In this document: positions 1,953 to 51,280 of the stretch, in pieces
Layout of the letters: every line of letters begins with the position of its first letter
Position numbering within the stretch: the first letter of the stretch is position 1
Origin: Planctomycetota bacterium
Lineage (GTDB): Bacteria; Planctomycetota; UBA1135; GCA-002686595
Direction: 5' to 3'
Assembly: GCA_029259605.1 (NCBI GenBank)
Contig: JAJDEV010000097.1
Coordinates: 1-64,000 of the forward strand
Length of the DNA: 64,000 nucleotides
Notes under the pieces: model-generated
Seen by the model: only the letters and a program-made list of their open reading frames with translations
The model's database searches: none
Told to the model about the DNA's origin: nothing
Program-made: the position numbers and the translations under genes

Positions 1953-3311
1953 ATGCCCGAAGCCTCCTCGCCGCGCCGACTGCTTGTTCCCACGCTGCTC
2001 CTCGTTGCGGGATTCTCCTACGGCTTCGTGGCGGCGAAGCGCGGGCTCTTTCCCAGCGCTTGGATTTCGGCGCTCGTCGCGGACGCGGATGCGACCTCGA
2101 AGCCGAAGAACGCGGGCCCCGTCGAGACCGTGCTCCCCACCGGCTGGTGGGTCGAGACGGGCGAGCGGCACTCCGAGGACGCGATCACGGAGAACCTCGG
2201 CGACCTCGGGTACGGGCAGAGCTACGGGGTCGGCGCCGACGAGTGGGGTGTCGTCGACTACGACGAGGCGCGCGCGAGCGACGGGTGGAACCTGATCGTC
2301 TCCGCGCACGAGCCGGCCGCGTTGCTCGCCGACATGCAGGGCGAGGTCGTGCACGAATGGACGTTCCCGTTCGACGACATCCCGAAGCCGGCGGGGTTCG
2401 AGCAGCGCGCCGCGTTCGGGACGCGCTACTTCCGGCGCGCGGCGCTCCTCGACGGCGGCGCGTTGCTCGCGCTCTACGACGGCGCGGCGCTCATCAAGCT
2501 CGACAAGGACTCGCGCCTCGAGTGGAGCCTGCTCGGCGGCTACCACCACGACCTCGACGTCGCGGCCGACGGCTCGATCTGGGTGCTGACGCACGAGGCG
2601 CACGTCGTGCCGCGGCTGCACGAAACGGCGAAGGTCAAGGAGGACTTCGTGACGCGCGTCAGCGCGGACGGCGAGGTGCTCGGCAAGTGGTCGCTGCTCG
2701 AGGCCTTCGAGAACTCGGCCTACGCGCCGCTCCTCACCTCGGTGAATCCCGAGCAGCGCAGCGGCGACATCTTCCACACCAACACGATCACGATGTTCGA
2801 CGGCAGCCTGGCGCACCACTCGCCGCTGTTCGCCGAGGGCAACGCACTGGTCTCGGTGTGGGGGCTCGACACGGTGGCGATCGTCGATCTCGGGGCGAAC
2901 GAGGTCGTCTGGGCGCTCACCGGTCTTTGGCACCGGCAGCACGAGCCGATCGTCCTCGAGAACGGCAACCTGCTCGTCTTCGACAACATGGGCGCGAACG
3001 AGCGCTCGAGCGTGATCGAGATCGAGCCGTTCACCCAGCGCATCGCGTGGAGCTTCGTCGGAGACGACGAGAACGACTTCTACTCCGCCCTCTGCGGCAC
3101 GAGCGCGCGCCTCGCCAACGGCAACACGCTGATCACCGAGTCGCTCTCCGGCCGCGCCTTCGAGGTCGCGCCCGACGGCGAGGTCGTGTGGCGCTATCTC
3201 AGTCCGTTCCGCGTGGAGCAGAACGGCAAGGACGGCGTCGCGGTGCTGATGGAGGTCGTGCGGCTGCCGCAGAGCCTGCCGCTCGACTGGCTCGACGCCG
3301 ACTCGCGCTAG
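1953..3311 (+). CDS. Arylsulfotransferase-like (ASST family) exported protein
   Basis: 452 residues. An N-terminal hydrophobic segment (about 9-27) suggests a signal anchor. The body has repeated propeller-blade phrases such as GEVVHEWTFPFDD, WSLLGGYHHDLDVAADG, GNLLVFDNMG and GNTLITESLSGRAFEV, as in the Arylsulfotran_2 family of PQQ/WD-like propellers. Family members are annotated as aryl-sulfate sulfotransferases, and HHDLDV and DIFHTNTI are plausible active-site histidine motifs. Whether this protein transfers sulfate is not shown. With a sulfotransferase fusion and a sulfatase-like gene nearby, a role in sulfated surface polymers is an inference. A -10-like TAGGCT lies 14 bp before the ATG. 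The stop TAG overlaps the stop of the convergent next gene inside one CTAG (3308-3311). Confidence 0.75.
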   Translation: MPEASSPRRLLVPTLLLVAGFSYGFVAAKRGLFPSAWISALVADADATSKPKNAGPVETVLPTGWWVETGERHSEDAITENLGDLGYGQSYGVGADEWGVVDYDEARASDGWNLIVSAHEPAALLADMQGEVVHEWTFPFDDIPKPAGFEQRAAFGTRYFRRAALLDGGALLALYDGAALIKLDKDSRLEWSLLGGYHHDLDVAADGSIWVLTHEAHVVPRLHETAKVKEDFVTRVSADGEVLGKWSLLEAFENSAYAPLLTSVNPEQRSGDIFHTNTITMFDGSLAHHSPLFAEGNALVSVWGLDTVAIVDLGANEVVWALTGLWHRQHEPIVLENGNLLVFDNMGANERSSVIEIEPFTQRIAWSFVGDDENDFYSALCGTSARLANGNTLITESLSGRAFEVAPDGEVVWRYLSPFRVEQNGKDGVAVLMEVVRLPQSLPLDWLDADSR

Positions 3312-6130: not shown

Positions 6131-8455
6131 GTGCTCCCTGCCGTCTTCCATCACGACGCGCGACGTTCCTTGGACTTGCCCAACAAAACGCTTCCGGCCG
6201 CGCTGCGCGCGCTCGGCCTCGGACTGCTCGCCGGCGCGGCGTTCGGCACCGTCGAAGTCGCGCTGCGACTCGCGGGCAACGACGACCCGTCGGTCGCACG
6301 GCGTGGCCTCGCGCTGCTTCGCTATGGAGCGCTTTGGAACGCGCTGCTCGGCGCGTCGCTCGCCGTCTTCGCGGCGCTCCTCGGTCGCATCGCGGTGGGC
6401 AACGACTGGCGCAGCGCGCGCGAGGGTGGCGCCGCGGTCGTCATCGGGGCACTCGCGGCGTTCGTCACTCCGATCGTCGGCCTGCTCGCGCTCAGCGATC
6501 GTCTGACGCGGAGCTCGGCGATCATCCGCGTCTGCGTCCTCGTGATTCTGGCGCTGTGCGCGATCCTCGTCGGCTGGACCGTCGCGCGCCGGCTCTCCGC
6601 ACGGCCGGCGGGACCCGCGGCGAAGTGGGTTCTGGCTTCCGCGCACCCGCGCTGGATCGCGGTCGCGATGACGGTCGTCATCGCGCTCTCCACATGGCTC
6701 ACCCTGCGCTCGCAGAGCCGCGTCGTTCACGCCGGCGATCGGAGCGCCGCTCCGGCCCCGGTGCGCGCGGCGGCCGGCGCGGCGGCGCCCGACGTGCTCC
6801 TCATTCTCGTGGACACGCTGCGCGCGGACGCGCTCGCGTGCTACGGCGCCGAGGCCGACACACCGAACATCGACGCGCTCGCCGCGCGCGGTGCGTTGTT
6901 CGAGGACGTGTACGCGCCGGCATCGTGGACGCTGCCCTCGGTCGCGTCGCTGTTCACGTCGACGCTACCGTCCTCCCACGGCCTCTCGGACTTCGGCCAA
7001 TCGATCGCGGCCGACCAGGAGACGCTCGCCGAGCGCTTCGGGGCCTCCGGATACCGCTGCCGCGCGGTCGTCGGCAACCCGTTCGTGAACGCTCCCGCCG
7101 GCTTCGCGCGCGGCTTCGAGGTCTTCGACGTCTACTCGCAGGAGGTCGAGCGCACGCTGTTCGCCGCACGCCTCTTCGAACTCTCCCTCGAGCTCTCCGG
7201 CCTGTGGCGCGACCCCAAGCGCTCGATCGTCCCGTGGTTCGAGCCCCAGGCGTTCCCGTTCGTCGGCTCGCGTCTTTCCTTCTATGTCGAGGACCGCGAC
7301 ATCAACCGGCGCATGCGCGACTACGCCTGGCTTCCGAGCGATCGGCCGGCGTTCCTGTACGCGCACTACGTCGGACCGCACACGCCCTACCTCGAGCATC
7401 CGACGCGGCTCCTCAAGTCGCAGCCGAGCCTCGAGGAAGCGCACCTGACCGAGTTGCGCGCGCGGTACGCGTCCGAGGTGGAACAAACCGACGCCGCGAT
7501 CGGAGACCTGCTCGCCAGGATCGGCGCCGAGCGTGACCTGGACGACATGCTCGTCGTCGTCACGTCCGACCACGGCGAGGAGTTCCTCGAGCACGGGCAG
7601 TTCGAGCACGGGCACGGCGTGTACCAGGAGGTCGTTCACGTGCCGCTGATCGTCGCGGGCCCGGGCGTTCCGCGGGGTGCGCGCGTGGAAGGGATCGCCC
7701 AACTGCTCGACGTCGCGCCGACGCTGCTCGACCTCGCGGGCATCGAAACACCGGAAACGTTTGCCGGCCGCAGCCTCGCTCCGCTCTTCGCGGATTCCAC
7801 CGAATTCGCCGCGGGCGTCGCCCTGTGCGAAGCGACTGCGCGTACGCTGACGCCCGACGGGCCGAGCTTCGGGATCGTCTCACGCGGCTGGAAAGTGATC
7901 CGGCAGCGTGCGCGCGACGGAGAGCTACGGCATGAAGAGATCTACGACCTCGAGCACGATCCGGGTGAGGAACATCCGTTGACCGCCTCGTCGGACGGGC
8001 TGCCCCCCGAGATCGAGGAGCTGCGCGCGCAATTGGGCGCGCTCGAGCAGTCGGTGCGCATCCGCTCGACGTCCGTCGTGGTCGATGGCGAGGCGCTCGA
8101 CGCGATGGGGTACTCGGGCGAGGACGCGTTCGAGCCGGAGCGCGTCCCGACCGCCGAAGAGGTGCGCGTGTTCGCCGCGTGGACCGAGGCGCTGCCGCAG
8201 GACTACCGCCCGCTCGTCGTGCCCGTTCGCTTCGAGAACGGCAAGCTGACGGTCGCGATCGATCCGAAGGCGGGCGTCGAGATGTTCCGCGAGTTCTCGG
8301 GCGAGGTGCATCGGAAGCGGGCGAACGAGCAGCTGGGTGAGGAGACGATCCGGAGCCTCGACTTCGAGCCTTCGGAAGGAACCGGGATCGACGACTCCGT
8401 CCGTGAACAGCTGCGGAGCATCGCTCCTTCGGACGAAGGCGACTCGAGCGAATGA
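6131..8455 (+). CDS. Membrane-anchored sulfatase-like enzyme with Thr nucleophile
   Basis: 774 residues. Five hydrophobic segments fill residues 15-200, followed by an alkaline-phosphatase-superfamily domain starting at LLILVDTLRADALACYG (metal Asp). The nucleophile position reads WTLPSVASL, with Thr267 where classical sulfatases have the Cys that becomes formylglycine. SDHGEEFLEHGQ and GHGVYQEVVHVPLIV supply further metal-site residues. Thr nucleophiles are typical of phosphoglycerol and phosphoethanolamine transferases and related hydrolases, so sulfate-ester cleavage should not be assumed. The gene overlaps the flippase gene by four bases (ATGA), pointing to modification of the exported glycan or its lipid carrier. 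The start is uncertain: GTG at 6131, or TTG at 6170. Confidence 0.8.
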   Translation: MLPAVFHHDARRSLDLPNKTLPAALRALGLGLLAGAAFGTVEVALRLAGNDDPSVARRGLALLRYGALWNALLGASLAVFAALLGRIAVGNDWRSAREGGAAVVIGALAAFVTPIVGLLALSDRLTRSSAIIRVCVLVILALCAILVGWTVARRLSARPAGPAAKWVLASAHPRWIAVAMTVVIALSTWLTLRSQSRVVHAGDRSAAPAPVRAAAGAAAPDVLLILVDTLRADALACYGAEADTPNIDALAARGALFEDVYAPASWTLPSVASLFTSTLPSSHGLSDFGQSIAADQETLAERFGASGYRCRAVVGNPFVNAPAGFARGFEVFDVYSQEVERTLFAARLFELSLELSGLWRDPKRSIVPWFEPQAFPFVGSRLSFYVEDRDINRRMRDYAWLPSDRPAFLYAHYVGPHTPYLEHPTRLLKSQPSLEEAHLTELRARYASEVEQTDAAIGDLLARIGAERDLDDMLVVVTSDHGEEFLEHGQFEHGHGVYQEVVHVPLIVAGPGVPRGARVEGIAQLLDVAPTLLDLAGIETPETFAGRSLAPLFADSTEFAAGVALCEATARTLTPDGPSFGIVSRGWKVIRQRARDGELRHEEIYDLEHDPGEEHPLTASSDGLPPEIEELRAQLGALEQSVRIRSTSVVVDGEALDAMGYSGEDAFEPERVPTAEEVRVFAAWTEALPQDYRPLVVPVRFENGKLTVAIDPKAGVEMFREFSGEVHRKRANEQLGEETIRSLDFEPSEGTGIDDSVREQLRSIAPSDEGDSSE

Positions 8456-11923: not shown

Positions 11924-13786
11924 CTAGCGGGGGTCTTCGGACGCGGGAACCGGGTCCGTAGCGGGAGGGTACCCGAGTTCGGCCAGGTCCGCGCCGATCA
12001 GACGCTGGAGTTCCTCGCGTTCCTGCGCGGAGAAGTTGCGCCGCCCCTTACCCGGAACACGCGGGTCGCCCGGATTGTGCGCGCGATCGAAGCGCCCCAC
12101 CGCCATCTCCGCCTCGAACTCGACGTCGAGGAACGCGCACACGCCGCGCAGCGTTCCCTCAGGGTTGGACGCGAGGTCCTCGTAGCGAACGTCGATCGAC
12201 TGCTCGCGGTGGCGCTCGGCGAAGCGACGCGTCTGGCGCTCGATGTGCAACCAACGCTTCGCCGCCTCGTCGACGCGTCCATAGAGCCCGCCGCGCAGAT
12301 GCGAATGCACGAGATCGCAGCCGTCGCGAACGACGTGGAGGAACTGCGCGTCCGGGAACGTGGCGAGCAAGCGCGAGAGCGTCTCCGGCGTGCCCGCGCC
12401 CACGACAGAGGGCTCGCGACCCGCCATGCTCGCGTCGTCGAGCGAGTTCATCGAGGTCTTGTCGCCCCAGCGCAGCGGCGTCTTGCCGTGCGCCTCCGCG
12501 TGATGGCGATAGAACGCGTCGAGCACGTGGGCGAGGTTGCGGTCCTTGTGTCCGATCCAACTCAAGCGGTGCGCGAGCGGTTGCAAGTCGACGTCGAAGG
12601 CGTGGAAACTCGGATGGAACTCGAACTGGGCGAGGAGCAGCGCGACGAGGTCGTGCCAGTTGAGCTTGCGGCCGTAGCGTTTGAACTTCCTGACGCACTG
12701 GCCGAGCACGTAGGTCTCGGGCGGTACGTGCAATCGTGAGTGCGCGTCGAGCGCGAGGCGCAGCTCCGATCCGCCGGAGTGACGCGCGCCGATGACGAAG
12801 AACGGACGGTGGCGCGCCTTTCCGCGCAGCGGATAGCCCGCGAACGGAACGCGGCGCCGGATCTCGCCCGCGCCGATCGCGTGGTTCACCGAGAACGGCA
12901 GCATCGTGCGCAACACGCCCTTCATCCGGCTGGCCGACGGTCGCATGCGCCAGGCGCGGAAGGCGAGCTGCGCCGCGCGCATGCGCATGCCTTGCTCGTA
13001 GTGCGCCATCGCCGCCTTGTCGGTCCAGAAGCACTTGAAGCCGATCGCCTCGCCCGCCTCGTCGAACAACGCCTTGTGCTTGGCGTAGATGTAGTCGGCG
13101 ATCACGTCGTCCTGCAGACGACAGCTGATGTTCATCGACGACGGCAAGATGCGGTACTCGTAGAGCGGCTGACGTACGCGCCCCGCCTTGCACCCGGTGT
13201 CGAACGCGCGGATCCAGAACTCGAAGTCCTCGCGGCCGCGGCGCAAGACCTCGCTCTCGTCGTAACCACCGAGCCGTTCCCAAAGCGCGCGCCGCATCAT
13301 CGTGCCGGCACCCGGAATCGTGTCCTCGGCGCGCAGCATCTTCTTGCCGGCCGGCGGTCCCGGGAACTCGAGCACACCGACCGTGCGCCCGAAGAGCCGC
13401 ACGTCGCCGTACGCGCAGTCGAGCTCGGGGTCCGCGTCGAACATGGAGACCAGCGCCTCGAGGCTGTTCGCCGCGATGCGGTCGTCCGCGTCGACGGGCA
13501 GAACGAGCTCGGTGCGCGCCTCGCGAATGCCCGTGTTGCGCGACCCGCCGAGCCCGAGGTTCGCCGTGTGCCGATGCAGTCGGATGCGCGCGTCGCCGAT
13601 GCGCGCGATGGCCTGCTCGATGTCCGCGCCGTCGGGGGACTCGTCGTCGACGACGATCGCCTCCCAATGCGGAAACGATTGCTCGACGAGGCTGGTGAGG
13701 CACTCCGACAGGTAGTGCGCCTGGTTGTAGCAGGGCACCACGACTGTGACGCGCGCGGTCGAGCGCGCGTCTCCGTCGCGCGTCAT
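11924..13786 (-). CDS. GT2 glycosyltransferase-sulfotransferase fusion protein
   Basis: 620 residues. Residues about 10-260 are a GT2 domain: VTVVVPCYNQAHYLSECL opening, VVDDESPDG, LPVDADDRI as the metal-binding DxD, and GGYDESEVLRRGREDFEFW as the acceptor-side ED motif. Residues about 340-620 are a PAPS-type sulfotransferase: RPFFVIGARHSGGSELR is the 5'-PSB-like loop (with a GARHSGGSE variant), FLHVVRDGCDLVHSH the 3'-PB region, and VRYEDLASNPEGTLRGVCAFL the typical C-terminal segment. One protein could thus add a sugar and sulfate it. The frame is open upstream to 14146; ATG 13786 just before the GT domain is taken as start, with GTG 13834 possible. It leads the run of genes down to 10008. 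Confidence 0.8.
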   Translation of the reverse strand: MTRDGDARSTARVTVVVPCYNQAHYLSECLTSLVEQSFPHWEAIVVDDESPDGADIEQAIARIGDARIRLHRHTANLGLGGSRNTGIREARTELVLPVDADDRIAANSLEALVSMFDADPELDCAYGDVRLFGRTVGVLEFPGPPAGKKMLRAEDTIPGAGTMMRRALWERLGGYDESEVLRRGREDFEFWIRAFDTGCKAGRVRQPLYEYRILPSSMNISCRLQDDVIADYIYAKHKALFDEAGEAIGFKCFWTDKAAMAHYEQGMRMRAAQLAFRAWRMRPSASRMKGVLRTMLPFSVNHAIGAGEIRRRVPFAGYPLRGKARHRPFFVIGARHSGGSELRLALDAHSRLHVPPETYVLGQCVRKFKRYGRKLNWHDLVALLLAQFEFHPSFHAFDVDLQPLAHRLSWIGHKDRNLAHVLDAFYRHHAEAHGKTPLRWGDKTSMNSLDDASMAGREPSVVGAGTPETLSRLLATFPDAQFLHVVRDGCDLVHSHLRGGLYGRVDEAAKRWLHIERQTRRFAERHREQSIDVRYEDLASNPEGTLRGVCAFLDVEFEAEMAVGRFDRAHNPGDPRVPGKGRRNFSAQEREELQRLIGADLAELGYPPATDPVPASEDPR

Positions 13787-14200
13787 CTCCTGCGCGGCGG
13801 ATGCGCCGGATCGAGTCTTGGGTTGAGTCTCCACGGTCAGGATGGACGGCTGCTGCGAGCTTGGAAAACGCTCGGGGTCGCGAGCTCCCGAATCCGGCGC
13901 CCCCTCCAACGCCGCCGAGGCCACCCATGCTATCCGGATCTGCCGATCGGAGGGAGCGGCGCCGATCTGCCTCCGCATCCACCCGTCAGCCGCGGCGAAG
14001 CGCGCCGTCACACCGCTCCCGGTCGATTCCTTCCGGTTTTGGCGCACGCGCGCGACGGACGCTTGGGCTCGCTGCGTCGAAACGTCGAAGAAACCGGCGA
14101 CCTCCGCTCCCCCACATCGCGCAGGCCCCGTAGGCGGCAATCGCATATACTGAGGGATCCGGAGGAGAGAAACGGTTCCGGCAGAACCGCAGCACGACCC
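13787..14200. other. Divergent regulatory region before the wzz-like gene
   Basis: About 410 bp between divergent genes, without a credible ORF. A -10-like TATACT is at 14146-14151. GGAGGAGA at 14161 is 30 or more bases before the ATG at 14201 and is separated from it by an inverted repeat (cggttc/gaaccg, 14173-14189). The leader could therefore fold and bring the ribosome site nearer, or control initiation. Confidence 0.35.
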
Positions 14201-15874
14201 ATGGCCAAGGCACCCATCGAAGAGAAGCAGGAACTCGGTCCGCCGATCGACATCATCGACACCGTCGTGCTCGGTATCGGGCGGTTCCGCTTCTGGATCA
14301 TCCCGTTCGCCGCGATCGGCCTGTGCGTCGGCCTGGCGATGGCGCTCATCAAGCCCAACCAGTACGCCTCGGGCGGCAAACTCAAGATCGAGTTCGGCCA
14401 GCGCGAGTCGCTCACCGTCGAACAGCTCATCACCGGATCGCGTCGTCCCGTGCCCTCAAACGGCAAGGGCGGCTTCGGCATGAACGACGAGCTCACCCTG
14501 CTGCGCACGCCCGAGTTCTACGAGCGCGTCGCGCGCGAAGTCGGCCCGGACCGGCTCACCGAGCGCATCGATCCGACGCGCTTCGACACGTCGGCGACGC
14601 CCAAATATCTGCGCTGGCAACACAAGCTGCAGGACTGGTGGTTCAACGGGCCCAAGTCGAACGACCCGGAGAAGCGCACGACGCTCAATCTGGACTCGCA
14701 GGCGGGGCTCGACGCCGCGCGCGCGATGATCACGCGCGGTCTACGGCTCAAGGCGTCGGGGTCGAACATCCTGTCCATCGGATTCAACGCACGCTCGCCG
14801 GAGCTGGCGCAGGACGTCGTCGCCGCGGCCATGAAGGTCGCGATCGAGTACCACCGCGAGAAGTTCACCGAGATCTTCCACACCGAGTTCGTTGTCGCAC
14901 GGATCGACGAAGCGGAATCGCGCGGCGCGGTCGCGAAGGACGAGTACACGAAGCACAAGAAGGACTGCGGCTTCTACGACATCAAGGCGCAGCGAGAGAC
15001 CGAGCTCAACAATCGCAACCGCATCGAGCTCGCGCTCGATGAGGGTGAGCGCATGCTCGGCGAGATCTCCAGCGAGAAGGAGCACTACGCGAAGCTGCTC
15101 GAAACGACCGAACCGACGATCATGCAGCCCTTCGCGGCCAAGATGGGGCCGAACGAGATCTGGGTGCAGATCAACCAGGACATTCGGAAGACGTCGCTGA
15201 AGCTCGACGGGCTCAAGCTCATGTTCAAGGAAGGCTCGGACTCGTACATCCGGACCAAGGAGAGCCTCGAGGCGAAGCTCGCGCACCTGCAGACGGAACT
15301 CGAGGGCGTCGACCGCAACGTCGAGGTCGTCGCCTCCCACGAGGCCGAAGTCCCGAACCAGCGCTACCTCGAGATCCAGGAGAAGCTCGGCAACCTCGAC
15401 CTGCGGAAGACCCAGATCCTCGACAACGAGGTGAGGTACAACGAGCGCCTGAAGGAGATTGACGCGAAGCTCGACGCGATCGCCGCGTGCGAGCCGGATC
15501 ACCAGACGATGCAGCAGCAGATCAACAGCGCGGCCCAGGAGATCGGCATCTTCCAGCAGACGATGCGGCAGCAGGAAGCGCTCGCGATCCTCGACGTGGA
15601 CGAGGCGCTCGGCAACATCCAGCCCATCGCCGACGCGCAGTACAAGCCGAACAAGGTCGGTCCGAAGCGCGGACAGGAGCTCCTGATGGGGCTCGGCGGC
15701 GGCATCGGCGCGGCGCTCGCCTTCGGGATTCTCCGCCAGCTGCTCGATCGGAAGTTGCGCTACCCGATGAGCGTGCAGAAGATGCTCGGCGTGCGCGTCC
15801 TCGGCGTGATTCCGGAGCAACGCAGTTGGCGCCGACTCGGTACGAAGCTTCGACGCCAAGCAGCAGGCGCCTGA
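14201..15874 (+). CDS. Wzz/GumC-type polysaccharide chain-length/copolymerase protein
   Basis: 557 residues. A membrane helix near residues 30-52 and a second near 500-522 bracket a large periplasmic region rich in heptad-like coiled coil (about 225-470), the layout of polysaccharide co-polymerases. The short cytoplasmic tail ends in RRQAAGA and lacks the kinase domain of Wzc, which follows as a separate ORF six bases later. The family controls chain length and couples polymerisation to export through Wza. ATG 14201 is chosen although the frame is open far upstream, because the N-terminal cytoplasmic stretch and first membrane helix begin here and the upstream translation is low-complexity. 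It probably works with the Wza-like lipoprotein at 25373-26098. Confidence 0.85.
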   Translation: MAKAPIEEKQELGPPIDIIDTVVLGIGRFRFWIIPFAAIGLCVGLAMALIKPNQYASGGKLKIEFGQRESLTVEQLITGSRRPVPSNGKGGFGMNDELTLLRTPEFYERVAREVGPDRLTERIDPTRFDTSATPKYLRWQHKLQDWWFNGPKSNDPEKRTTLNLDSQAGLDAARAMITRGLRLKASGSNILSIGFNARSPELAQDVVAAAMKVAIEYHREKFTEIFHTEFVVARIDEAESRGAVAKDEYTKHKKDCGFYDIKAQRETELNNRNRIELALDEGERMLGEISSEKEHYAKLLETTEPTIMQPFAAKMGPNEIWVQINQDIRKTSLKLDGLKLMFKEGSDSYIRTKESLEAKLAHLQTELEGVDRNVEVVASHEAEVPNQRYLEIQEKLGNLDLRKTQILDNEVRYNERLKEIDAKLDAIAACEPDHQTMQQQINSAAQEIGIFQQTMRQQEALAILDVDEALGNIQPIADAQYKPNKVGPKRGQELLMGLGGGIGAALAFGILRQLLDRKLRYPMSVQKMLGVRVLGVIPEQRSWRRLGTKLRRQAAGA

Positions 15875-15880
15875 TTCTCG

Positions 15881-16558
15881 ATGGGCAACGACACGGAACC
15901 GCTACCGCTGGAGGAAGGGCTCGGCGATCTCAATCGCCCGCTCGACATCCTCTGGTCGAACTTCGCCTCCGTCACCGGACGGAACGAGGAGCGCGTTCGT
16001 ATCCTGTTCACCAGCCCGCAGCACGGAGCGGGGACGACGACCATCGCGTGCGCCACGGCGCTCGGCCTCGCGCGCAACATGAACGAGAAGGTCGCGCTGG
16101 TCGAGACCAACCTCTACACGCCGGCGATGTCGACGTATCTCGGCCTGCCCCCGGCGCCGGGGTTGACCGACTGCCTCGACGGCAAGGTCGAAACGGCGGA
16201 GGCCATCCGCAACTCGCAGGTCGACGGGCTCTACGTCCTCTCCGGCGGATCGCCGCGCACGCCGCGGCCGGGCGAGCTGATCAGCAAGAAGGCGGGCGCC
16301 ATCTTCGCGGCTGCCGTCGAGGATCGCCGCTACGTCTTGATCGATGCGCCGCCCGTCGTCGATCACCCCGAGGCGAACATCCAGCTCGAGTTCGCCGACT
16401 ACGTCGTGCTCGTCATCCAGGCGCGCATGACGAAGAGCGGTGTCGCGCGACGCGCCATGCGCATGATCCACAGGTCGGGCACGCCGGTCCTCGGCGTGAT
16501 CGTCAACCGCTTCCAATCCGACCTGCCGTTCGGAATCGGGGCGGGCGAGTGGAACTAG
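15881..16558 (+). CDS. CpsD/CapB-like ATPase with degenerate P-loop
   Basis: 225 residues, matching the cytoplasmic ATPase part of BY-type tyrosine kinases. The expected Walker A reads SPQHGAGTTT (residues 45-54), with Thr where the essential Lys should be. Walker A' reads LVETNLYTP instead of the usual DAD pattern. Walker B (YVLIDAPPVVD) and the domain framework are kept. No C-terminal tyrosine cluster is present. The gene follows the Wzz-like gene by six bases, the normal partner order. The missing Lys and Asp suggest a structural or nucleotide-sensing partner rather than an active kinase. It could also bind ATP in another way. Confidence 0.8.
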   Translation: MGNDTEPLPLEEGLGDLNRPLDILWSNFASVTGRNEERVRILFTSPQHGAGTTTIACATALGLARNMNEKVALVETNLYTPAMSTYLGLPPAPGLTDCLDGKVETAEAIRNSQVDGLYVLSGGSPRTPRPGELISKKAGAIFAAAVEDRRYVLIDAPPVVDHPEANIQLEFADYVVLVIQARMTKSGVARRAMRMIHRSGTPVLGVIVNRFQSDLPFGIGAGEWN

Positions 16559-19720: not shown

Positions 19721-20683
19721 ATGCAAGGCATTCGCATTCGCGGTCTGGTCAAGCGCTATCCGAACACGACGGATTTGTTCGGACTGCTGCGCCATCCCTT
19801 CGCGGCGCGCGAGGGAACGACGGCGCTGCACGGCATCGACCTGACGCTCGAGCCGGGACGGATCTACGGGCTCGTCGGCCCGAACGGCGCGGGCAAGACC
19901 ACGCTGCTCAAGATCGTCGCCGGGCTCGTGCTCCCCGACGAAGGGACGATCGAGCTCGACGAAACGACGCTCGATTCGCGCTCGCGCCGGGCGCGCAACG
20001 CGATCGGCTACGTCGTCTCCGAGGAGCGCTCGTTCCACTGGCGCCTGACCGTGCGCGAAAACCTGCGCTTCTTCGGCGTGCTCGAACAGGTCGACGATCC
20101 CGAGAGTCGGGCGACGCTGTGCCTCGATCGCGTCGGCATGCTCGAACACGCCGATCGCTCGTTCCGCGAGCTGTCGACCGGGATGCGCCAACGCGTGGCC
20201 CTCGCGCGCGGTCTGCTCGGCGATCCGCGCGTGCTTCTGATGGACGAGGCGACGCGCTCGCTCGATCCGCTCGCCGCGGACGACCTGCGCGCCGTCCTGC
20301 GTGAGCTCTTCCCGGTCGGTTCGGAGCGCACGCTCGTCTACTCGACGCACAACCTGGCCGAGGTCGAGGTGCTCTGCACGGACCTCGTCGTGTTGCGCAA
20401 GGGGCGCGTCACGGCGCGGCGCGACCTGGTCGCCGGTGGCGGCGCGCTCGATTCGAGTTGCTACACCCTGCGCACGCGTCGTCCCATCCCGGGCGACGTC
20501 CTCGCGGCGATCGACGGCATCGAGCGTCTCGGCGAGCGCGAAGGCGCGGTGTCGGTGCGCGTGGCCACCGAGGCGACGCTCGACGGGCTCGTCGCGTGCG
20601 TCCACGCGGGCGAGTACGGCTTGCTCGAGCTGCGCAACGATCCGTGGATCGAGGACCTCCTCCGCGAGGAGCCCGTGCAATGA
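19721..20683 (+). CDS. ABC transporter ATP-binding protein (ABC-2 exporter type)
   Basis: 320 residues. Walker A GPNGAGKTT, Q-loop region near VVSEERSFHWRLTVREN, signature LSTGMRQRVALARGL, Walker B VLLMDEAT and H-loop STHN are all present. About 80 C-terminal residues follow the nucleotide-binding domain, as in DrrA/CcmA-like exporters. The ATG at 19721 begins the domain directly. The gene overlaps the permease by four bases (ATGA), so the two form an exporter for a lipid, glycan or peptide. It lies opposite the RiPP-like cluster, separated from it by a palindromic element, so a link to peptide export is only possible, not shown. Confidence 0.9.
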   Translation: MQGIRIRGLVKRYPNTTDLFGLLRHPFAAREGTTALHGIDLTLEPGRIYGLVGPNGAGKTTLLKIVAGLVLPDEGTIELDETTLDSRSRRARNAIGYVVSEERSFHWRLTVRENLRFFGVLEQVDDPESRATLCLDRVGMLEHADRSFRELSTGMRQRVALARGLLGDPRVLLMDEATRSLDPLAADDLRAVLRELFPVGSERTLVYSTHNLAEVEVLCTDLVVLRKGRVTARRDLVAGGGALDSSCYTLRTRRPIPGDVLAAIDGIERLGEREGAVSVRVATEATLDGLVACVHAGEYGLLELRNDPWIEDLLREEPVQ

Positions 20684-21495
20684 CGTTCCGCCGCACCGCC
20701 GCCGCGTTCATCCGCCGCGACTGGCTCATCGCGACGAGCTATCGCGTCAACTTCATCCTCAGCCTGGGGACGATGATCGCCGCGCTGTTCTTCATGGCGT
20801 TCATCTCCGAGTTCGTCGGCGACGTCGCGGCGGACATGCTCAAGGGCTACGACGGCAGCTACTTCGCCTTCCTCGTGCTCGGCGTCGGCGTGCTTTCGTT
20901 CCTCGACACGGCGCTGACGCAGGCGTCGCGCCGCATCCGTGAGGGTCAGGTGCTCGGCACGCTCGAGGCGCTGCTCGCGACGCGCACCGGACTTCCGACG
21001 ATCCTGATCTGCCTGCCGCTCTACGCGTTCCTCGAGACTTCGGTGCGCTTCGTGCTCTACCTCGTGCTCGGCATCGCGTTCTTCGAGATGAACGTGAGCT
21101 CCGGCAACGTGCCGGCGGCGCTGCTGCTCTTCGCCGCCGCCATCGTCGCGTTCGCGTCGCTCGGGCTCGTCGTCGCCGGACTGACGATCGCGTTCAAACG
21201 CGCGGAACCGATCGCCAACCTGATCAGCGGCGTGAGCCTCTTCCTCGGCGGCGTCTACTATCCGCTCGACGTGTTGCCCGGGTGGTTGCACACGCTTGCC
21301 TACCTGCTGCCGATCACTCCCGCGCTCGCCGGACTGCGCCTCGCGCTCCTCTCCGACACGGCGGGCTGGTCGGACATCCTGCCCGAGCTGCTCGCCTTGC
21401 TCGCCTACATCGCGGTGATGCTGCCGGTCGGCATCGCGTTCTTCCGCTGGTCGCTGCGCCGCGCGATGCGCGACGGCACGCTCACGCAGTACTAG
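20680..21495 (+). CDS. ABC-2 type transporter permease
   Basis: 271 residues with six predicted membrane helices in the ABC-2 arrangement. The segment GVSLFLGGVYYPLDVLPGWL is the hallmark loop before the fifth helix in DrrB/NodJ-type permeases. Its ATG overlaps the stop of the ATPase gene (ATGA), so the pair is co-translated. The last codon TAC is followed by a TAG stop that is part of the CTAG border of the palindromic element at 21496. The substrate is unknown; polysaccharide, lipid or the nearby peptides are all possible. Confidence 0.88.
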   Translation: MTFRRTAAAFIRRDWLIATSYRVNFILSLGTMIAALFFMAFISEFVGDVAADMLKGYDGSYFAFLVLGVGVLSFLDTALTQASRRIREGQVLGTLEALLATRTGLPTILICLPLYAFLETSVRFVLYLVLGIAFFEMNVSSGNVPAALLLFAAAIVAFASLGLVVAGLTIAFKRAEPIANLISGVSLFLGGVYYPLDVLPGWLHTLAYLLPITPALAGLRLALLSDTAGWSDILPELLALLAYIAVMLPVGIAFFRWSLRRAMRDGTLTQY

Positions 21496-21670
21496 CCCGG
21501 GTTATTCATGGGGCTTTGCCGAGATCGACGCAGATGTGCGTCAGATCAGCGCTTCGCGACCGAAGCGCGTGGAGGCGACCTTGACGGGTCGTCGAACCCG
21601 GTGAGGGAGGGAAGTGCTGAGATGGCGCGCAGCTGCGTCGATCTCGGTGAAGGCTCATGAATGATCCGGG
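21496..21670. mobile_element. CTAG-flanked palindromic element, family A1
   Basis: 175 bp between CTAG 21492-21495 and CTAG 21671-21674. Left end cccgggttattcatg, right end catgaatgatccggg. Inverted relative to the copies at 1 and 30479. It fills the space between convergent genes: the left CTAG holds the TAG stop of the ABC permease, and the right one lies four bases from the stop of the nucleotidyltransferase gene. About 50-bp imperfect inverted arms surround a small cgggt/acccg core hairpin. Confidence 0.8.
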
Positions 21671-21678: not shown

Positions 21679-22860
21679 TCAGAGCCGCTTGAACAGGGCG
21701 AGCCCGTGCGCGCGCAGCAAGCGGTACGGACGGTAGATCCAGTAGACGAACTCGAGCGGACGCGGGAGCGCGAGCGCCTGTCGATCGGTCCACTCGGGGC
21801 GCAGGATCGTCACGAGATAGCGGACGAGGCCGAGCGGCGCGCCGGGGTGCGTTCCGCGCCCGATCGCGGCCGCATCGAGCCGCGCGAGGTGCGTTCTCCA
21901 CTCCGAGTACTTCGGCAGTCCCGAGTCGAGGCGCGCCATGCGCTCCAGCGTGAGCGCGACCTCCGCGCGAATCGACGCGGTCTGCGCCGAGCGCACGACG
22001 CGCTCGGGGAGTGGCGCATCGAGCAGGACCCACGCGAGGTAGGCGCCGACGAGCACGGTGTGCTCGCGGCCGAGGCCCTCGGCGCGCTCGAGCACGACAC
22101 CCCAGTCGAGGTCCGGGTGCGCGACGAAGAGCCGCGCGATGTCCGCCGCCATTTGCAGGCGCACCCAGCGGTGCTTCTCGCCGCCGTGAATGCAGAGCAC
22201 GATGAACAGATCCTCGGGCCCGAGGACCTCGACCTCGGTGCCGAAGATCGAGAGCGGAACGAGCCGGTCCCAATACGAATCGATGTCGTAGCCCTTGCGG
22301 TGGCGCGCGGGGAGCAAATCCCAGTGCACCTCGACGAGCGTGCGGTCGCTCTTTCGCACGAAGTGCCATTCGCAGTCCGCGAGGTCGCGCGGCCCGCCGG
22401 ATTCGAAGCCGCGCGCGCGCATGACCTCCGCGACCGTGTCGAGCTCGCCCTCCTCGACGACGATGTCCAAGTCATAGAACTGCCGCTGCCCCAGATCGTC
22501 GTACAGCGCGAGCGCGAGCACCGGCCCCTTGTACGGTGAAGCGCGCAGCCCGCGCGCCGCGAGATCGGCGAGGATGCCCAGGAGCTCGCGCACGTGGGCG
22601 AGGTTCTCGCGCTGGCACCTCTTGAACTCCTCCTCGAACTCGTCGCGCCATGCGGCGGGAACGGACTCGAACTCGATGGACCGCAGCGTGTCGTACACCA
22701 TCGGGATGACGCGGTTCTTCTGCGACATCTGGAACGCGAGCTTCCAATCGACGACGGCGGCGGCAGCACGGCGCGTGCGTTCCGCGCGTGACCTGCTGCT
22801 CGTTGCGATACAGGTCGCCTCGATCAGGAGCGTGAGCTCGGACGCGAACGGCTCGCTCAT
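21679..22860 (-). CDS. Nucleotidyltransferase family protein (NTP_transf_5-like)
   Basis: 393 residues. The motif SPYKGPVLALALYDDLGQRQFYDLDIVV carries the GS-like entry and the catalytic Asp130-x-Asp132 pair of minimal nucleotidyltransferases, as in the uncharacterised nucleotidyltransferases found beside lasso-peptide and HPr-kinase-like genes. A conserved VEVHWDLLP and a helical C-terminal region follow. The expected reaction is transfer of a nucleotide to an unknown acceptor. Its ATG overlaps the stop of the HPr-kinase-like gene (ATGA), so the two are co-translated, and both lie downstream of the peptide genes. Possible acceptors include the peptide, its phosphate group, or a glycan precursor; none is demonstrated. 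Confidence 0.8.
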   Translation of the reverse strand: MSEPFASELTLLIEATCIATSSRSRAERTRRAAAAVVDWKLAFQMSQKNRVIPMVYDTLRSIEFESVPAAWRDEFEEEFKRCQRENLAHVRELLGILADLAARGLRASPYKGPVLALALYDDLGQRQFYDLDIVVEEGELDTVAEVMRARGFESGGPRDLADCEWHFVRKSDRTLVEVHWDLLPARHRKGYDIDSYWDRLVPLSIFGTEVEVLGPEDLFIVLCIHGGEKHRWVRLQMAADIARLFVAHPDLDWGVVLERAEGLGREHTVLVGAYLAWVLLDAPLPERVVRSAQTASIRAEVALTLERMARLDSGLPKYSEWRTHLARLDAAAIGRGTHPGAPLGLVRYLVTILRPEWTDRQALALPRPLEFVYWIYRPYRLLRAHGLALFKRL

Positions 22861-23810
22861 CGCCCCTGTGCGTGGGCTTCGATGCGCTCCACGAGCTCCT
22901 CGAGCCGTTCCAAACCGCGCGGCCTGCGAAGCCGGAAAAACGGCACGCCGTCGGCGATCACGCGTGCGCGCCGCATGACCTCGTCGGACCCGACGGTGCG
23001 ATGCTGCAACTTGGCGCGATGCCCATGCCCGATGGCGGCGAGCAGCGCTTCCTTCGTAGGCAAGGGCCCGATCAGCTCGGGTTCCCCGTCTTCGATCAGG
23101 TAGACGCGCGCGAGCGGGAGCGGCTCGGTACGCAGCGGCCCCGCGACGGCTCGCGCGCGCTTGTCCTCCTCGGGATTCACGAGCGGCATCGCGTTCCCAT
23201 CGTCGCCGCGGTGCGCAATGAGCTCGGCCGTCATCTTGATCTGCGGATAGGCGGGCACCGTGCGCAACGGGTCCGCTTCGACGTCGATCGCCATGACGTC
23301 GTCGGACAGGAATGCGTGCCCGCGCTCGTGGAGCGCGAGCGCGAGCGTCGACTTGCCCGTGCCCGAAACAGCCGCGAACGCGATCGCCGCGCCGTTCAGT
23401 TCGACGCCGCTCGCATGCAACGGATAGAGCCCGCGTTGGGTCAAGAGGACGCTGAACACCGGGCCGAGGAGCGCCGCGCGCAGCCCCGCGGGATCGACGC
23501 CCGCGCACGGCGCGATCTCGATCGAATGGCCACCGTCGATGCGCACACGCGCCACGTTGGGCCAGTCGAACCACGCGACGTCGCCGTCGGCACCGAACCA
23601 GTCGTCGCCGACGCGCTCGCCCCGCAAACGCGCGATCGCCTCCGACCACGGGTCGTCCGCGTCCAGCCCGTGCGCGCGGATCGAGAGGTGCACATCCCGC
23701 GCTCGCTCACCCGAGCGCGCAGGCAGCTCGGGGAACTCGAGTGCGGACTCGAGTCGCAGTCCAAAGAGACCGTAGGTCGTCACGTCAGGGGCGGCGTCGG
23801 CGCGTCGCAT
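22857..23810 (-). CDS. HPr kinase-like protein (lasso-peptide-kinase type)
   Basis: 317 residues. The C-terminal half is an HPr kinase/phosphorylase fold: PLHASGVELNG with His132, P-loop AVSGTGKST (Lys153) and FLSDDV with Asp170-Asp171. The N-terminal 110 residues are unlike true HprK and match the extra domain of HprK-related proteins in RiPP and polysaccharide loci. Characterised relatives in paeninodin-type lasso clusters phosphorylate the C-terminal Ser of the precursor; both candidate precursors upstream end in Ser. The gene follows the intrinsic terminator after the peptide genes and overlaps the nucleotidyltransferase gene by four bases. ATG 23810 is preferred to the open frame up to 23933. 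A role in regulation of glycan synthesis (HPr-rel-A-like system) is the alternative. Confidence 0.82.
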   Translation of the reverse strand: MRRADAAPDVTTYGLFGLRLESALEFPELPARSGERARDVHLSIRAHGLDADDPWSEAIARLRGERVGDDWFGADGDVAWFDWPNVARVRIDGGHSIEIAPCAGVDPAGLRAALLGPVFSVLLTQRGLYPLHASGVELNGAAIAFAAVSGTGKSTLALALHERGHAFLSDDVMAIDVEADPLRTVPAYPQIKMTAELIAHRGDDGNAMPLVNPEEDKRARAVAGPLRTEPLPLARVYLIEDGEPELIGPLPTKEALLAAIGHGHRAKLQHRTVGSDEVMRRARVIADGVPFFRLRRPRGLERLEELVERIEAHAQGR

Positions 23811-23930
23811 GGGGTGAGGCGGGCGCGGCGGCGGGGCAAGAGACTGCCCTCTCCGACCGCCTCTCACAACCCACCGCCGGGCGGCGTCGAACCCGAGTTC
23901 GCACGCGGAGAGGCGGACATCCGCGTCGGG

Positions 23931-23978
23931 CAAATAAACAACGAGCGCCGACCCGGGAAACGGAATCGGCGCTCGTTG
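23931..23978 (-). terminator. Intrinsic terminator after the peptide genes
   Basis: A perfect 13-bp inverted repeat (caacgagcgccga at 23939-23951 and its complement at 23966-23978) encloses a 14-base loop. Read on the minus strand it is followed by TTTATTTG. It lies 9 bases past the stop of the second peptide gene and 120 bases before the HPr-kinase-like gene. It would end most transcripts after the peptides and let a minority run on into the enzyme genes, a common way to make peptide in excess. Confidence 0.85.
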
Positions 23979-23987
23979 GTTGGGGGA

Positions 23988-24140
23988 CTAGCTGCGGAAC
24001 GGACGCTCTTCAGCGAGCGTCCGATGTCCGTCGAACTTCTGGATGTCAAAGGCGCTTTCTTGGCCAGTCAGGGCTTCGATCGTGCCGTGGGTCACGAGCT
24101 TCGGAACGACGTACGGCTTCTTGCCTTGGGGAGCGAGCGT
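23988..24140 (-). CDS. Lasso-leader-type precursor peptide 1 (possible ACG start)
   Basis: 50 residues counted from ACG at 24140. The leader APQGKKPYVVPKLVTHGTIE continues into ALTG, fitting the YxxPxLxxxGxxxxxT pattern (Tyr10, Pro13, Leu15, Gly19, Thr25) that PqqD-type RREs bind. The tail QESAFDIQKFDGHRTLAEER ends with PFRS. Aligned codon by codon with precursor 2, its ATG is replaced here by ACG, while AAGGAGG stands about ten bases upstream; no in-frame ATG, GTG or TTG has a comparable ribosome site. Either ACG is a weak start or the copy is losing its start. It shares EERPFxS with precursor 2. Thr25-Gly26 would place the core at Gln27, with no Asp/Glu at core positions 7-9, so a standard lasso ring is not expected. 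Confidence 0.72.
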   Translation of the reverse strand, partial: TLAPQGKKPYVVPKLVTHGTIEALTGQESAFDIQKFDGHRTLAEERPFRS

Positions 24141-24163
24141 CGGCGCTGCTCCTCCTTGGTTCC

Positions 24164-24190
24164 GCACGTCATTCGAGTCGAACGACGTGC
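24164..24190 (-). other. Stem-loop between the two peptide genes
   Basis: Inverted repeat gcacgtc...gacgtgc with further pairing of ttcga/tcgaa inside (one mismatch). It starts 6 bases after the stop of precursor 2 and ends just before the AAGGAGG site of precursor 1. No T-run follows on the minus strand, so it is not a classical terminator. It may protect the upstream message or hide the ribosome site of precursor 1. Confidence 0.5.
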
Positions 24191-24196
24191 AGCCGC

Positions 24197-24367
24197 TCAA
24201 CTTCCGAACGGACGCTCTTCCGTCGTCCCGGGACCCCCACCGAGGGGCCCTTTGGTGACCTTGCGAAGCCCGGTTCCGCTTTGACGCTGACCGGTGAGTT
24301 CCTCGATCGTGCCGTGCGTTTCGAGCTTCGGCGCGACGTACTGTTTCTTGCCTTGGGGGGCGATCAT
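24197..24367 (-). CDS. Lasso-leader-type precursor peptide 2
   Basis: 56 residues from ATG 24367, with AGGA nine bases upstream. Leader MIAPQGKKQYVAPKLETHG plus TIEELTG fits YxxPxLxxxGxxxxxT (Tyr10, Pro13, Leu15, Gly19, Thr25). The remaining QRQSGTGLRKVTKGPLGGG and PGTTEERPFGS are Gly-rich and end in Ser. Leader and last seven residues are conserved with precursor 1 while the middle differs, the usual pattern of paralogous RiPP precursors. Cores beginning at Gln27 or at Gly after VTK (McjA-like TK-G) lack an acidic residue at position 7-9. It is the first peptide gene after the B2-type protease gene. Predicted substrate of the RRE, protease and perhaps the HPr-kinase-like enzyme. Confidence 0.82.
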   Translation of the reverse strand: MIAPQGKKQYVAPKLETHGTIEELTGQRQSGTGLRKVTKGPLGGGPGTTEERPFGS

Positions 24368-24455
24368 TGATTGGGTTCCTGCTTGTAACCGCACACGGTT
24401 TCTCCTGACCGAACACGGGGTCGATCCAGCGATCGACCGGTTTCGTAGGTCGTGA

Positions 24456-24485
24456 AGAGTACCACGCTCTGCGAGAAACCGGCAA
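24456..24485 (-). promoter_or_regulatory. Weak candidate promoter for the peptide genes
   Basis: Read on the minus strand: TTGCCG (24485-24480), 18 bases, then TACTCT (24461-24456), about 90 bases before the ATG of precursor 2. Both boxes match the consensus only in part. The 262-bp space between the B2-type gene and precursor 2 (24368-24629) is otherwise without features. Confidence 0.22.
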
Positions 24486-24629
24486 GTGGAGCACGCGTCT
24501 CCGAACCCAAGAAACACCGCCATTACGGGCGATTCGGCGGAAAATAGTGCCCGGAAACGGGCTGGCGACGCCTGGGGCCCCGCGCGGAAGCTCGGTCCGC
24601 GGGCAAGGCGCGAGCACCGCCCCGGATTT

Positions 24630-25064
24630 CTAGGGACGAACGGAGGTCTCGAGCGGCGTGTAGCGACCCGTTTCGGCCTCCCCGAGCACGACGTGGCCCT
24701 CGCAAACGAGCCACGCGTGAGCGCGGATCGACACCCCTCCCGGGCCGGGCTCGACCCCGTAGCGGACTTCGGACGCGTAGCCCGCGCGCGCGAGCAGGAT
24801 CTGCCCCGCGAACGCGTCGGGAAGGCACGTGTCCTTGCCCGGCAGGTAGCGCTTCGCGCGCTCGATCGAGCGCATCGCGCGGGGCACTGTCGGACGCGGT
24901 GCGCGCGACTCTCGCACGCGCGCGAGGCGCGCCTGAATCGCCTTCATCCTGCGATATCCGACGATCCGCATGCCGCTGCGCACGAAACACAGCAAGACGA
25001 GAGCGCGCAGCGTCGCAGCGCGATTCGCGAAGCGCGTGGCTCCGCCGCTAGGCGGCCTGCCCAT
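24630..25064 (-). CDS. Lasso-peptide B2-type leader peptidase (transglutaminase-like)
   Basis: 144 residues. Cys80 in KDTCLPDAFAGQILLARAGY and His116 in IRAHAWLVCEG form the cysteine-histidine core of the Transglut_core3 family, with VRYGVEPGPGG between them as in lasso B2 proteins. These enzymes cut the leader after the conserved Thr-x when the RRE presents it. The N-terminal 60 residues are basic and helical, typical of B2. The start (ATG 25064, or GTG 25067) overlaps the PqqD-like gene by 17 bases. The TAG stop is in a CTAG with no element inserted. The third catalytic residue (usually Asp) is not obvious here. Confidence 0.85.
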   Translation of the reverse strand: MGRPPSGGATRFANRAATLRALVLLCFVRSGMRIVGYRRMKAIQARLARVRESRAPRPTVPRAMRSIERAKRYLPGKDTCLPDAFAGQILLARAGYASEVRYGVEPGPGGVSIRAHAWLVCEGHVVLGEAETGRYTPLETSVRP

Positions 25065-25359
25065 CACGCACCTCGATCAACTCGGCGGTGCGCATCGTTT
25101 CGAGCACCGACAAGAGATCGGACAGGCACGAGGCCGCGTCGACGTCGTACTCGGCGAGCAGCGCGTCGAGCAGTTCGGACACCGCCGTCGGACTCTGGAT
25201 CCGCTTCCAAACCGTCGAGCCGACGTCGTTCAAGCTGTGGTACTGGCCCGTTTCCAGGTGAAGGATCACCGCTTCGCCCTCCAGGTCGCACTGGGCGACG
25301 CCGGGGCGAACGACAACGGTGGAGGCCTTCGAGAGCGGCGCGATCTGGTCGTGACCCAT
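25048..25359 (-). CDS. PqqD-like RiPP recognition element (lasso B1 type)
   Basis: 103 residues. The winged-helix PqqD fold is readable: VVVRPGVAQCDLEGEAVILHL, then ETGQYHSLNDVGSTVWKRI, the turn-and-helix region typical of stand-alone RREs, then a helical C-terminus (LLDALLAEYDVDAASCLSDL). RREs bind the YxxPxL leader and deliver it to the protease. Order and overlap with the B2-type gene match the B1-B2 pair of lasso clusters. It lies 13 bases after the Wza-like gene, so it is probably co-transcribed with a polysaccharide export gene. HPr-rel-A-type PqqD proteins are the alternative grouping. Confidence 0.87.
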   Translation of the reverse strand: MGHDQIAPLSKASTVVVRPGVAQCDLEGEAVILHLETGQYHSLNDVGSTVWKRIQSPTAVSELLDALLAEYDVDAASCLSDLLSVLETMRTAELIEVRDGQAA

Positions 25360-25372: not shown

Positions 25373-26098
25373 TCAGTTGATGAGGAGGTTCGGGACCGGG
25401 AGGAGCTTGACGAGTTCGCGGACCCATTGGGTCGTGATCCGGAGCGGATGCGTCGGAATGTAGACGATGTCGCCGCCCTGGAGATGCAGGAGCTCCTCGT
25501 TGGCCCAGTACTTCGGGCTGGCGTCGATCACCCAGTGGCGACGCTTCTGCTCGTCCGGCATCCAGCGAATGAGCACCGTGTGCTCGATCAGCGAGAACGT
25601 GTCCTGGGGGATGTTCATCTCGGCGAACGCCTCGATCAGGTCGATCGTCATGCCGGGTCCGACCTGGATCTTCGCTCGATTGCTCACAGCCCCCAGGAAG
25701 TGGACGTGGCGCTCGGAGAGCCCACCCGCGCGCACGAGCGGCGGCGGCGCGACGATCTCCTTGTCGTAGAGCACGGTCAACTTCTCCTGAAGCTGACCGA
25801 TCGAGAGCCCCGCGACTTCGAGCTCGCCCAGCACGGCGAAATTCGCGCGGCCGTCCGGACGGATCTTCGTCATCTGGTTGAGAGACTGGGTCGTCGCCTC
25901 GGTGCCCGCCACATCGCTGAACTTGACCTCGATGCCGTCGCCGGGCTGCAGCAGGATCTCGTTCGGCTGCAGGGTCGCGTTGATCTCCGGCAGGATGTCG
26001 GGCAGCGGCGTCCCGGGAGGGAACGCCGCGCATCCGCTCGCGACGAGCGTGGCGAGCGCGACAAGTGTCGCTCTGAGGGCCGATCTCGAGTGATGCAT
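25373..26098 (-). CDS. Wza-like polysaccharide export lipoprotein
   Basis: 241 residues. Lipobox LVASGC after a short signal peptide. The Poly_export domain begins at LQPGDGIEVKFSDVAGTE and includes IRPDGRANFAVLGELEVAGL and an SLBB-like part (VHFLGAVSNRAKIQVGPGMT). Shorter than E. coli Wza and lacking its long C-terminal helix, as in many Gram-negative relatives of this group. It would form or gate the outer-membrane pore that works with the Wzz-like protein at 14201. GGAG lies near the ATG. It is the first gene of the minus-strand run that continues into the RiPP-like genes. Confidence 0.85.
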   Translation of the reverse strand: MHHSRSALRATLVALATLVASGCAAFPPGTPLPDILPEINATLQPNEILLQPGDGIEVKFSDVAGTEATTQSLNQMTKIRPDGRANFAVLGELEVAGLSIGQLQEKLTVLYDKEIVAPPPLVRAGGLSERHVHFLGAVSNRAKIQVGPGMTIDLIEAFAEMNIPQDTFSLIEHTVLIRWMPDEQKRRHWVIDASPKYWANEELLHLQGGDIVYIPTHPLRITTQWVRELVKLLPVPNLLIN

Positions 26099-43516: not shown

Positions 43517-43710
43517 CCCGGATCATTCATGAGCATGCACGCCAAAAGCTGCAATCGACCGGCTACGCCGGTCTCTCGGCCCCTGCCGGCACTTTGCGAA
43601 CGTCGGCGTCCTCGACGACCTGACAAGGTCGCCTCCGGGGCCAACGTCCGCAAAGCACCGGCAGGAACCGAGTTGCAGCTACTGCCGCACATCCTCATGA
43701 ATCACCCGGG
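43517..43710. mobile_element. CTAG-flanked palindromic element, family A2
   Basis: 194 bp between CTAG 43513-43516 and CTAG 43711-43714. Same family and orientation as 16615-16812, sharing the cggcactttgcgaacg and cgtcctcgacgacc blocks, with full termini cccggatcattcatgag and ctcatgaatcacccggg. Third member of the array. Confidence 0.8.
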
Positions 43711-47300: not shown

Positions 47301-47398
47301 TCGCGCAGCCTACGACGAGTGCGTGACCGAACCAGGTTCCGAGCAGCACACTTCCGCGGCGTTCCGGTGTGCGGCGGGGAACCTGGTTTCGTAGCGGC

Positions 47399-51269: not shown

Positions 51270-51280
51270 CGGAGCCCGTC

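Follow-up and report, generated by a model that had tools for sequence, protein, structure and literature searches.

The DNA stretch analysed here (hereafter, the window) comprises 64,000 nucleotides of contig JAJDEV010000097.1 from a planctomycete genome (assembly GCA_029259605.1), and its minus strand carries, from position 25359 down to 21679, a compact gene set for ribosomally synthesized and post-translationally modified peptides (RiPPs). We consider it likely that this is a lasso peptide cluster which has lost both the macrolactam cyclase and the acceptor residue for the ring, and whose products are now linear peptides phosphorylated at the C terminus; by analogy with a tested relative, the product is probably further modified by the nucleotidyltransferase of the set. 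The phosphorylation and its site, the added group, cleavage, export and role of the peptide are inferred from sequence, trees and predicted folds. An earlier reading of the letters alone (the sequence-only reading) had placed a RiPP recognition element (RRE), a B2-type peptidase, two precursors, a kinase and a nucleotidyltransferase here on one strand, and family matches confirm all of them:

25048..25359, minus strand: PqqD-type RRE (B1), 103 aa (PF05402, E = 2e-19; lasso PqqD family NF033536, 67.7 bits)
24630..25067, minus strand: B2-type Cys leader peptidase, 145 aa (NF033537, 78.8 bits, cut-off 33; PF13471, E = 2e-23)
24197..24367 (ATG), minus strand: precursor 1, leader part MIAPQGKKQYVAPKLETHGTIEELTG, then QRQSGTGLRKVTKGPLGGGPGTTEERPFGS (lasso leader models)
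23988..24167, minus strand: precursor 2, leader part ..TLAPQGKKPYVVPKLVTHGTIEALTG, then QESAFDIQKFDGHRTLAEERPFRS (lasso leader models; start uncertain)
22857..23810, minus strand: HprK-like peptide kinase, 317 aa (weak matches to TIGR04352/04355 and PF07475)
21679..22860, minus strand: NTP_transf_5 nucleotidyltransferase-fold protein of the PsmN/LppN type, 393 aa (PF14907, E = 4e-53)

Neither the 64-kb window, as the sequence-only reading had rightly observed, nor the whole of this metagenome-assembled genome (MAG; 91.5% complete, 305 contigs, with the window cluster contiguous and free of gaps) yielded a lasso cyclase by family search and tree. A genome-wide PF00733 search returned three Asn synthases, none of the lasso type, all of which start with MCG (Cys2 kept), exceed the AsnB cut-off and fall far under the lasso-cyclase cut-offs. 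The Asn-synthase tree unites 14 cyclases from related clusters in a single clade (100/99) that excludes the three enzymes, each of which pairs with an orthologue from the sister genome HyVt-455; those Asn synthases of HyVt-455 and of another genome, G129, that could be placed also fall outside the cyclase clade. A lasso cyclase elsewhere in the window genome was therefore rejected, since search and tree place all three enzymes as ordinary Asn synthases. One of the three, an ordinary Asn-synthase-type amidotransferase resembling those of polysaccharide loci, lies on the contig of the window (C302:65693-67657), 1.7 kb beyond the window end and 41 kb from the cluster.

The ring acceptor is missing together with the enzyme. 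Counted from after Thr-Gly, neither window core has Asp or Glu at positions 7 to 9, which confirms what had been read from the sequence; the core of precursor 2 has Asp at position 6, which becomes position 7 only with cleavage one residue earlier. When homologous loci were compared for co-occurrence, Asp or Glu at core positions 7 to 9 was found in 14 of 14 loci with a cyclase and in 0 of 3 without (Fisher p = 0.0015, on 17 loci). Counted by precursor, the residue is present in 18/18 from 14 cyclase-bearing loci or genomes, against 0/5 from the three without a cyclase. In assigning cores, we set the leader Thr at residue −2; this register is supported because a start one residue upstream puts the acceptor at position 10 in several cyclase-bearing precursors. 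Locus L070 (G218), which has the acceptor in its precursors and no cyclase on the cluster contig, was rejected as cyclase-free because a lasso-type (Cys2-less) cyclase-like gene lies elsewhere in its genome. Also not counted as cyclase-free were L069 (G189), whose genome has on another contig an Asn-synthase-family gene next to a match to the lasso leader, and L020, L078 and L081, all three truncated at contig ends.

B2 clusters are rare among the relatives (3/61 genomes, the window genome included, in which the cluster's B2 protein is the sole PF13471 protein): the 60 relatives searched gave two B2 carriers of the same family, and a third carrier came from the class, in another family of the order. 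In HyVt-455 (G034; L010/L017), Wza, RRE, B2, two precursors, kinase and NTP_transf_5 genes stand in the same order as in the window, with 45-50% identity, and family search and tree found no lasso-type cyclase in that genome. The locus of G129 (L014), truncated at the start of its contig, has RRE, B2, an ABC pair, a precursor, kinase and NTP_transf_5 gene; no lasso-type cyclase was found in the G129 genome. The end of the G129 precursor (L014 3063-3248), GWGGGYNPWKTPGDS, resembles the tail GTNTGYNPWDGDGPWAVTGS of an L121 precursor that has Glu at core position 8. In G001 (L011/L015), by comparison, Wza, Wzz-like, CpsD, RRE and B2 genes are followed by a Cys2-less cyclase, and the precursor has an acceptor Asp. 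In a tree of the kinases, those of the window and HyVt-455 pair (100/98) and are joined by that of G001, of the same family (92/91), and the G129 kinase joins that of Thiococcus (93/83); Thiococcus and G001 are both cyclase-bearing. With moderate support, this suggests two separate cyclase losses.

A further type of locus was left out of the 17-locus test because, though cyclase-free, it has a radical SAM enzyme: in L086 (7002-11926) and L087 (6278-11513), a radical SAM gene accompanies PqqD, B2, HprK and NTP_transf_5 genes. In their precursors an EPKLT leader is repeated and the cores, which are very short, end in GFFSAFVP or GFFGSFTP; the genome of L086 (G358), a single contig with 100% completeness, contains no convincing Asn synthase.

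The precursors retain both ends of a recognizable plan. All four peptides from the window and HyVt-455 have a leader of the type APxQGKKxY..PKL.T.G..E.LTGQ and a C terminus RP[FY]xS around a variable middle; precursor 1 is 55-60% identical to the HyVt-455 precursors, with LTGQ and RP[FY]xS in common. The YxxPxL leader and Thr at −2 are both present. The window leaders score 18-23 bits with lasso leader models whose cut-offs are 19-33, that is, just under cut-off, and their assignment is reinforced because four homologous precursors occur in two genomes. A profile search for further precursors gave strong full-length matches only in the window and HyVt-455, and the weaker matches were dismissed as lasso-type precursors or chance. 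Only one Ser, the C-terminal one, recurs in all four cores, and it is the predicted kinase site, as in paeninodin. Gln stands at core position 1 in all four cores and in none of the cyclase-bearing cores of our table; this residue may become pyroglutamate. The start of precursor 2 is uncertain because ACG, behind AAGGAGG, stands where precursor 1 has its ATG, the nearest ordinary start being GTG 24167. Comparison of the window with HyVt-455 shows the lowest conservation at third codon positions in every cluster gene and in the precursor pairs, the pattern of selected rather than decaying genes.

The enzymes likewise look intact. The RRE, a lasso family match below the strict NF033536 cut-off of 80 bits, finds its nearest solved structures by phmmer in PbaB1 (9x90, E = 2e-13) and TbiB1 (5v1u, E = 2e-12), whereas the match to LppB (9x8z) is far weaker (E = 0.86). 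The B2 gene overlaps the RRE gene by 20 nt, and C81 and H117 of its product are invariant in a four-way alignment. The kinase retains H132, K153, D170 and D171 (the H-K-D-D motif, reported as essential in lasso kinases; PMC9266682) as well as K217 in the alignment, and its AlphaFold model (pLDDT 87.8) matches HprK/P and PEPCK in Foldseek (E ~ 1e-6). The NTP_transf_5 protein has invariant KG, R126, D130, D132 and H179, and its model (pLDDT 90.8) is similar to small nucleotidyltransferases, with MenT1, LnuA, ANT(2'')-Ia and FKRP as nearest folds, the FKRP match being weak (E ~ 1e-3, TM 0.27). HPr-rel-A membership was rejected, with both models under cut-off (HprK-related kinase A, TIGR04352, 38.3 vs 200 bits; its PqqD, TIGR04353, 19 vs 35 bits).

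Taken together, a pathway can be proposed as follows. Homology to solved RRE-leader complexes suggests that the RRE would bind the leader at its YxxPKL motif. The HprK-like kinase would phosphorylate the precursor, perhaps repeatedly, at the invariant Ser that closes RP[FY]xS at the C terminus, as PadeK and PsmK suggest. To this phosphate the NTP_transf_5 protein may add a nucleotide or a sugar; nucleotidylation, as proposed by the sequence-only reading, is thus one option, and the tested relative PsmN is tied to a hexose on phospho-Ser (PMC9266682). Cleavage by B2 after Thr-Gly would release a 24-30 residue core starting with Gln, maybe as pyroglutamate. No ring would be formed, which the absence of both cyclase and acceptor supports, and an ABC-2 pair encoded nearby would export the peptide. 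Being encoded within a Wza/Wzz/CpsD system, the peptide may, judging from position, act on or with it.

The genes of this export system in and around the cluster are:

25373..26098, minus strand: Wza-like polysaccharide export protein (PF02563, E = 5e-10), directly upstream of the RRE gene
14201..15874, plus strand: Wzz/PCP-like chain-length protein (assigned from its translation, which has a hydrophobic segment at each end and a long charged stretch between them)
15881..16558, plus strand: CpsD-like ATPase (PF10609)
19736..20683, plus strand: ABC transporter ATPase (PF00005, E = 3e-34)
20680..21495, plus strand: ABC-2 permease, partner of the ATPase (PF01061, E = 1e-12)

Wza is next to the RRE gene in HyVt-455 too (50% identity) and two genes further off in G001. 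CpsD homologues occur directly before the ABC pair in HyVt-455 (66% identical) and directly before PqqD in G001 (45%). The HyVt-455 copies of CpsD and the ABC pair stand at the edge of a contig and are oriented as one would expect if they formed the missing flank, the permease (73% identical) being convergent towards that side of the cluster. The G001 region contains ABC homologues too, as do L014, L019 and L069, where they adjoin PqqD/B2 genes, and the ABC ATPase and ABC-2 permease are the probable exporter of the peptides. Since RiPP genes stand beside Wza/Wzz/CpsD genes in three genomes, the placement is conserved in the family, and gene position suggests a role of the peptide in polysaccharide export. 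The flanking locus also contains an arylsulfotransferase, a sulfatase and a glycosyltransferase-sulfotransferase fusion (1953-3311, 6131-8455 and 11924-14146), which suggest a sulfated polysaccharide.

Between the ABC permease and the NTP_transf_5 gene lies a palindromic repeat of ~175 bp (21496-21670) with ends CCCGGATCATTCATG, which folds at -140.9 kcal/mol (z -14.9). Further palindrome ends occur in the window at 16618, 30479, 37112 (minus strand), 43517-43710 and 46636, and the end motif is found 264 times in the genome, often at contig ends, vs 0 for the reversed control; this is an abundant miniature palindromic element. Elsewhere in the window, three long, similar Ser/Thr kinase-like open reading frames (ORFs; 43909, 47414 and 54740, within 43909-57415) start LG.LG.G.MGEVYRAKDTRL, and a shorter one lies on the minus strand at 46656. 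At a second RiPP-like locus, not linked to the cluster (G000 C15:8388-11588; L006), the gene for a radical SAM/SPASM protein whose C-terminal part is PqqD-like precedes an HprK-like frame.

The absence of a cyclase could have other causes. An ordinary lasso cluster whose cyclase gene is merely missing from incomplete assemblies would fit a 91.5%-complete genome in 305 contigs, and G218 shows that a cyclase can sit apart from its B2 gene; however, no lasso-type cyclase was found in HyVt-455 either, the cluster in the window is contiguous and gap-free, and the acceptor is absent from five precursors in three genomes, which makes this explanation rather unlikely. It is improbable, too, that we are looking at a decaying remnant in which the cyclase is gone and the rest is drifting. 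The ACG at the expected start of precursor 2 and the rarity of B2 clusters (3/61) could be read in this way, but the enzyme genes are intact with their catalytic residues kept in two genomes at ~50% identity, the codon-position bias is typical of selected genes, and both ends are conserved in four cores. Ring closure in trans by the AsnB/XrtA-type amidotransferase C302:65693-67657, an enzyme of the same superfamily on the same contig with an orthologue in HyVt-455, appears highly improbable given that its glutaminase Cys is kept, that the tree places it among ordinary Asn synthases, and that the cores offer no acceptor. Several points do weigh against the reading as a cluster for linear phosphopeptides: the genomes are MAGs (91.5%, ~91% and 94% complete); only three cyclase-free loci of the window type were found, of which that of G129 is cut by the contig start; the cyclase/acceptor table holds few independent loci and depends on cores assigned with Thr at −2; and the support values for two losses (92/91 and 93/83) are under the tree tool's strict threshold. 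Moreover, the kinase is a divergent HprK relative under the Pfam cut-off (PF07475, E = 9e-6), its C-terminal Ser site is assigned by analogy while the kinases BsfK and LppK act on Ser3, and precursor 2 is without ATG at the expected place.

What the modified peptide does could also be viewed differently. As a carrier or cap joined covalently to the exported polysaccharide through its modified C-terminal Ser, it would match the position of the RiPP genes, which in three genomes of the family are embedded in a Wza-Wzz-CpsD export module, the link of PsmN-type enzymes to a hexose on phospho-Ser (PMC9266682) and the resemblance of the NTP_transf_5 model to FKRP, a CDP-ribitol-dependent transferase; yet the evidence is positional, and the FKRP fold match is weak and also shared by antibiotic adenylyltransferases, so that we regard this as quite improbable. 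A broader speculation, which we hold to be unlikely, gives the peptide a dedicated role in polysaccharide export: once its C-terminal Ser had been phosphorylated and then glycosylated, it would prime, cap or regulate the polysaccharide exported by Wza/Wzz/CpsD, and ring loss would have been favoured because this requires a free chain.

The closest known systems include the Linear Polyphosphorylated Peptides (LPPs) of Bacillota (Popov et al. 2026, Nat Commun, PMC13381572). The LPP clusters, such as the lpp cluster of Paenibacillus alginolyticus, contain an RRE, an HprK-like kinase, an NTP transferase, an MsbA-like exporter and a SipW-like peptidase and no cyclase; LPPs are described as linear analogues of phosphorylated lasso peptides, restricted to Bacillota and often in capsule loci, and a linear phosphorylated intermediate was demonstrated by mass spectrometry (PMC13381572). 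With them the window cluster shares the lack of a cyclase, a discrete RRE, the YxxP leader motif, the HprK-like kinase, the NTP transferase and the polysaccharide locus. The differences are that LPP clusters have (i) a SipW-like signal peptidase in place of a B2 Cys peptidase, (ii) an MsbA-like exporter rather than a separate ATPase and ABC-2 permease, (iii) the leader YxxPxVLxHQxIxFETxxS rather than YxxPKLxTxGxxExLTG, (iv) phosphorylation at Ser3, against a conserved Ser at the C terminus as predicted site, and (v) a Bacillota rather than a planctomycete host. No SipW-like signal peptidase I is among the genes annotated around the cluster, no genome-wide search having been made.

The paeninodin type, including pseudomycoidin (PadeK, PsmK, PsmN), shares with the window the RRE, B2, HprK-like kinase and nucleotidyltransferase, the YxxPxL...T(-2) leader and the C-terminal Ser; the window differs in having no cyclase, no Asp or Glu acceptor at 7 to 9 and a core that begins with Gln. 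The paeninodin kinase phosphorylates the C-terminal Ser of the precursor, and in pseudomycoidin the NTP_transf_5 homologue PsmN, the only tested relative, is needed for the hexose on the Ser phosphate (PMC9266682). In the BsfK lasso type of Bradymonas sediminis (PMC10368454), an RRE-aided kinase likewise acts on the precursor and B2 removes the leader, but Ser3 is phosphorylated, Ile stands at −2 and the cluster is reported as one for a lasso peptide. L086 and L087 are, like the window cluster, cyclase-free and acceptor-free with the same four accessory genes; they differ in the radical SAM gene, the core ends and a separate kinase lineage in the tree. As two defining lasso tests and three LPP features were negative, we file the window cluster as a linear, phosphorylated, lasso-related RiPP, a member of neither group. 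The linear phosphorylated product without a cyclase that the sequence-only reading had proposed is well supported by the genome search, the tree, the syntenic relative and the match between cyclase and acceptor. The claim that its product class was not known is not supported, since the LPPs are linear, phosphorylated by an HprK-type kinase and associated with an NTP transferase. An earlier description of B2-type cyclase-free clusters was not found in the open-access literature, which is not proof of absence.

These findings indicate that a lasso cluster can be converted to the production of linear phosphopeptides, which has apparently happened more than once and with enzyme and acceptor absent together, and that such a switch occurs outside Bacillota and with a normal lasso peptidase B2. 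Because the cyclase-bearing relative G001 belongs to the same family, it offers a natural test of how kinase and nucleotidyltransferase act without a ring. The same comparison bears on why such peptides recur in polysaccharide loci, where the LPP authors leave their role open.

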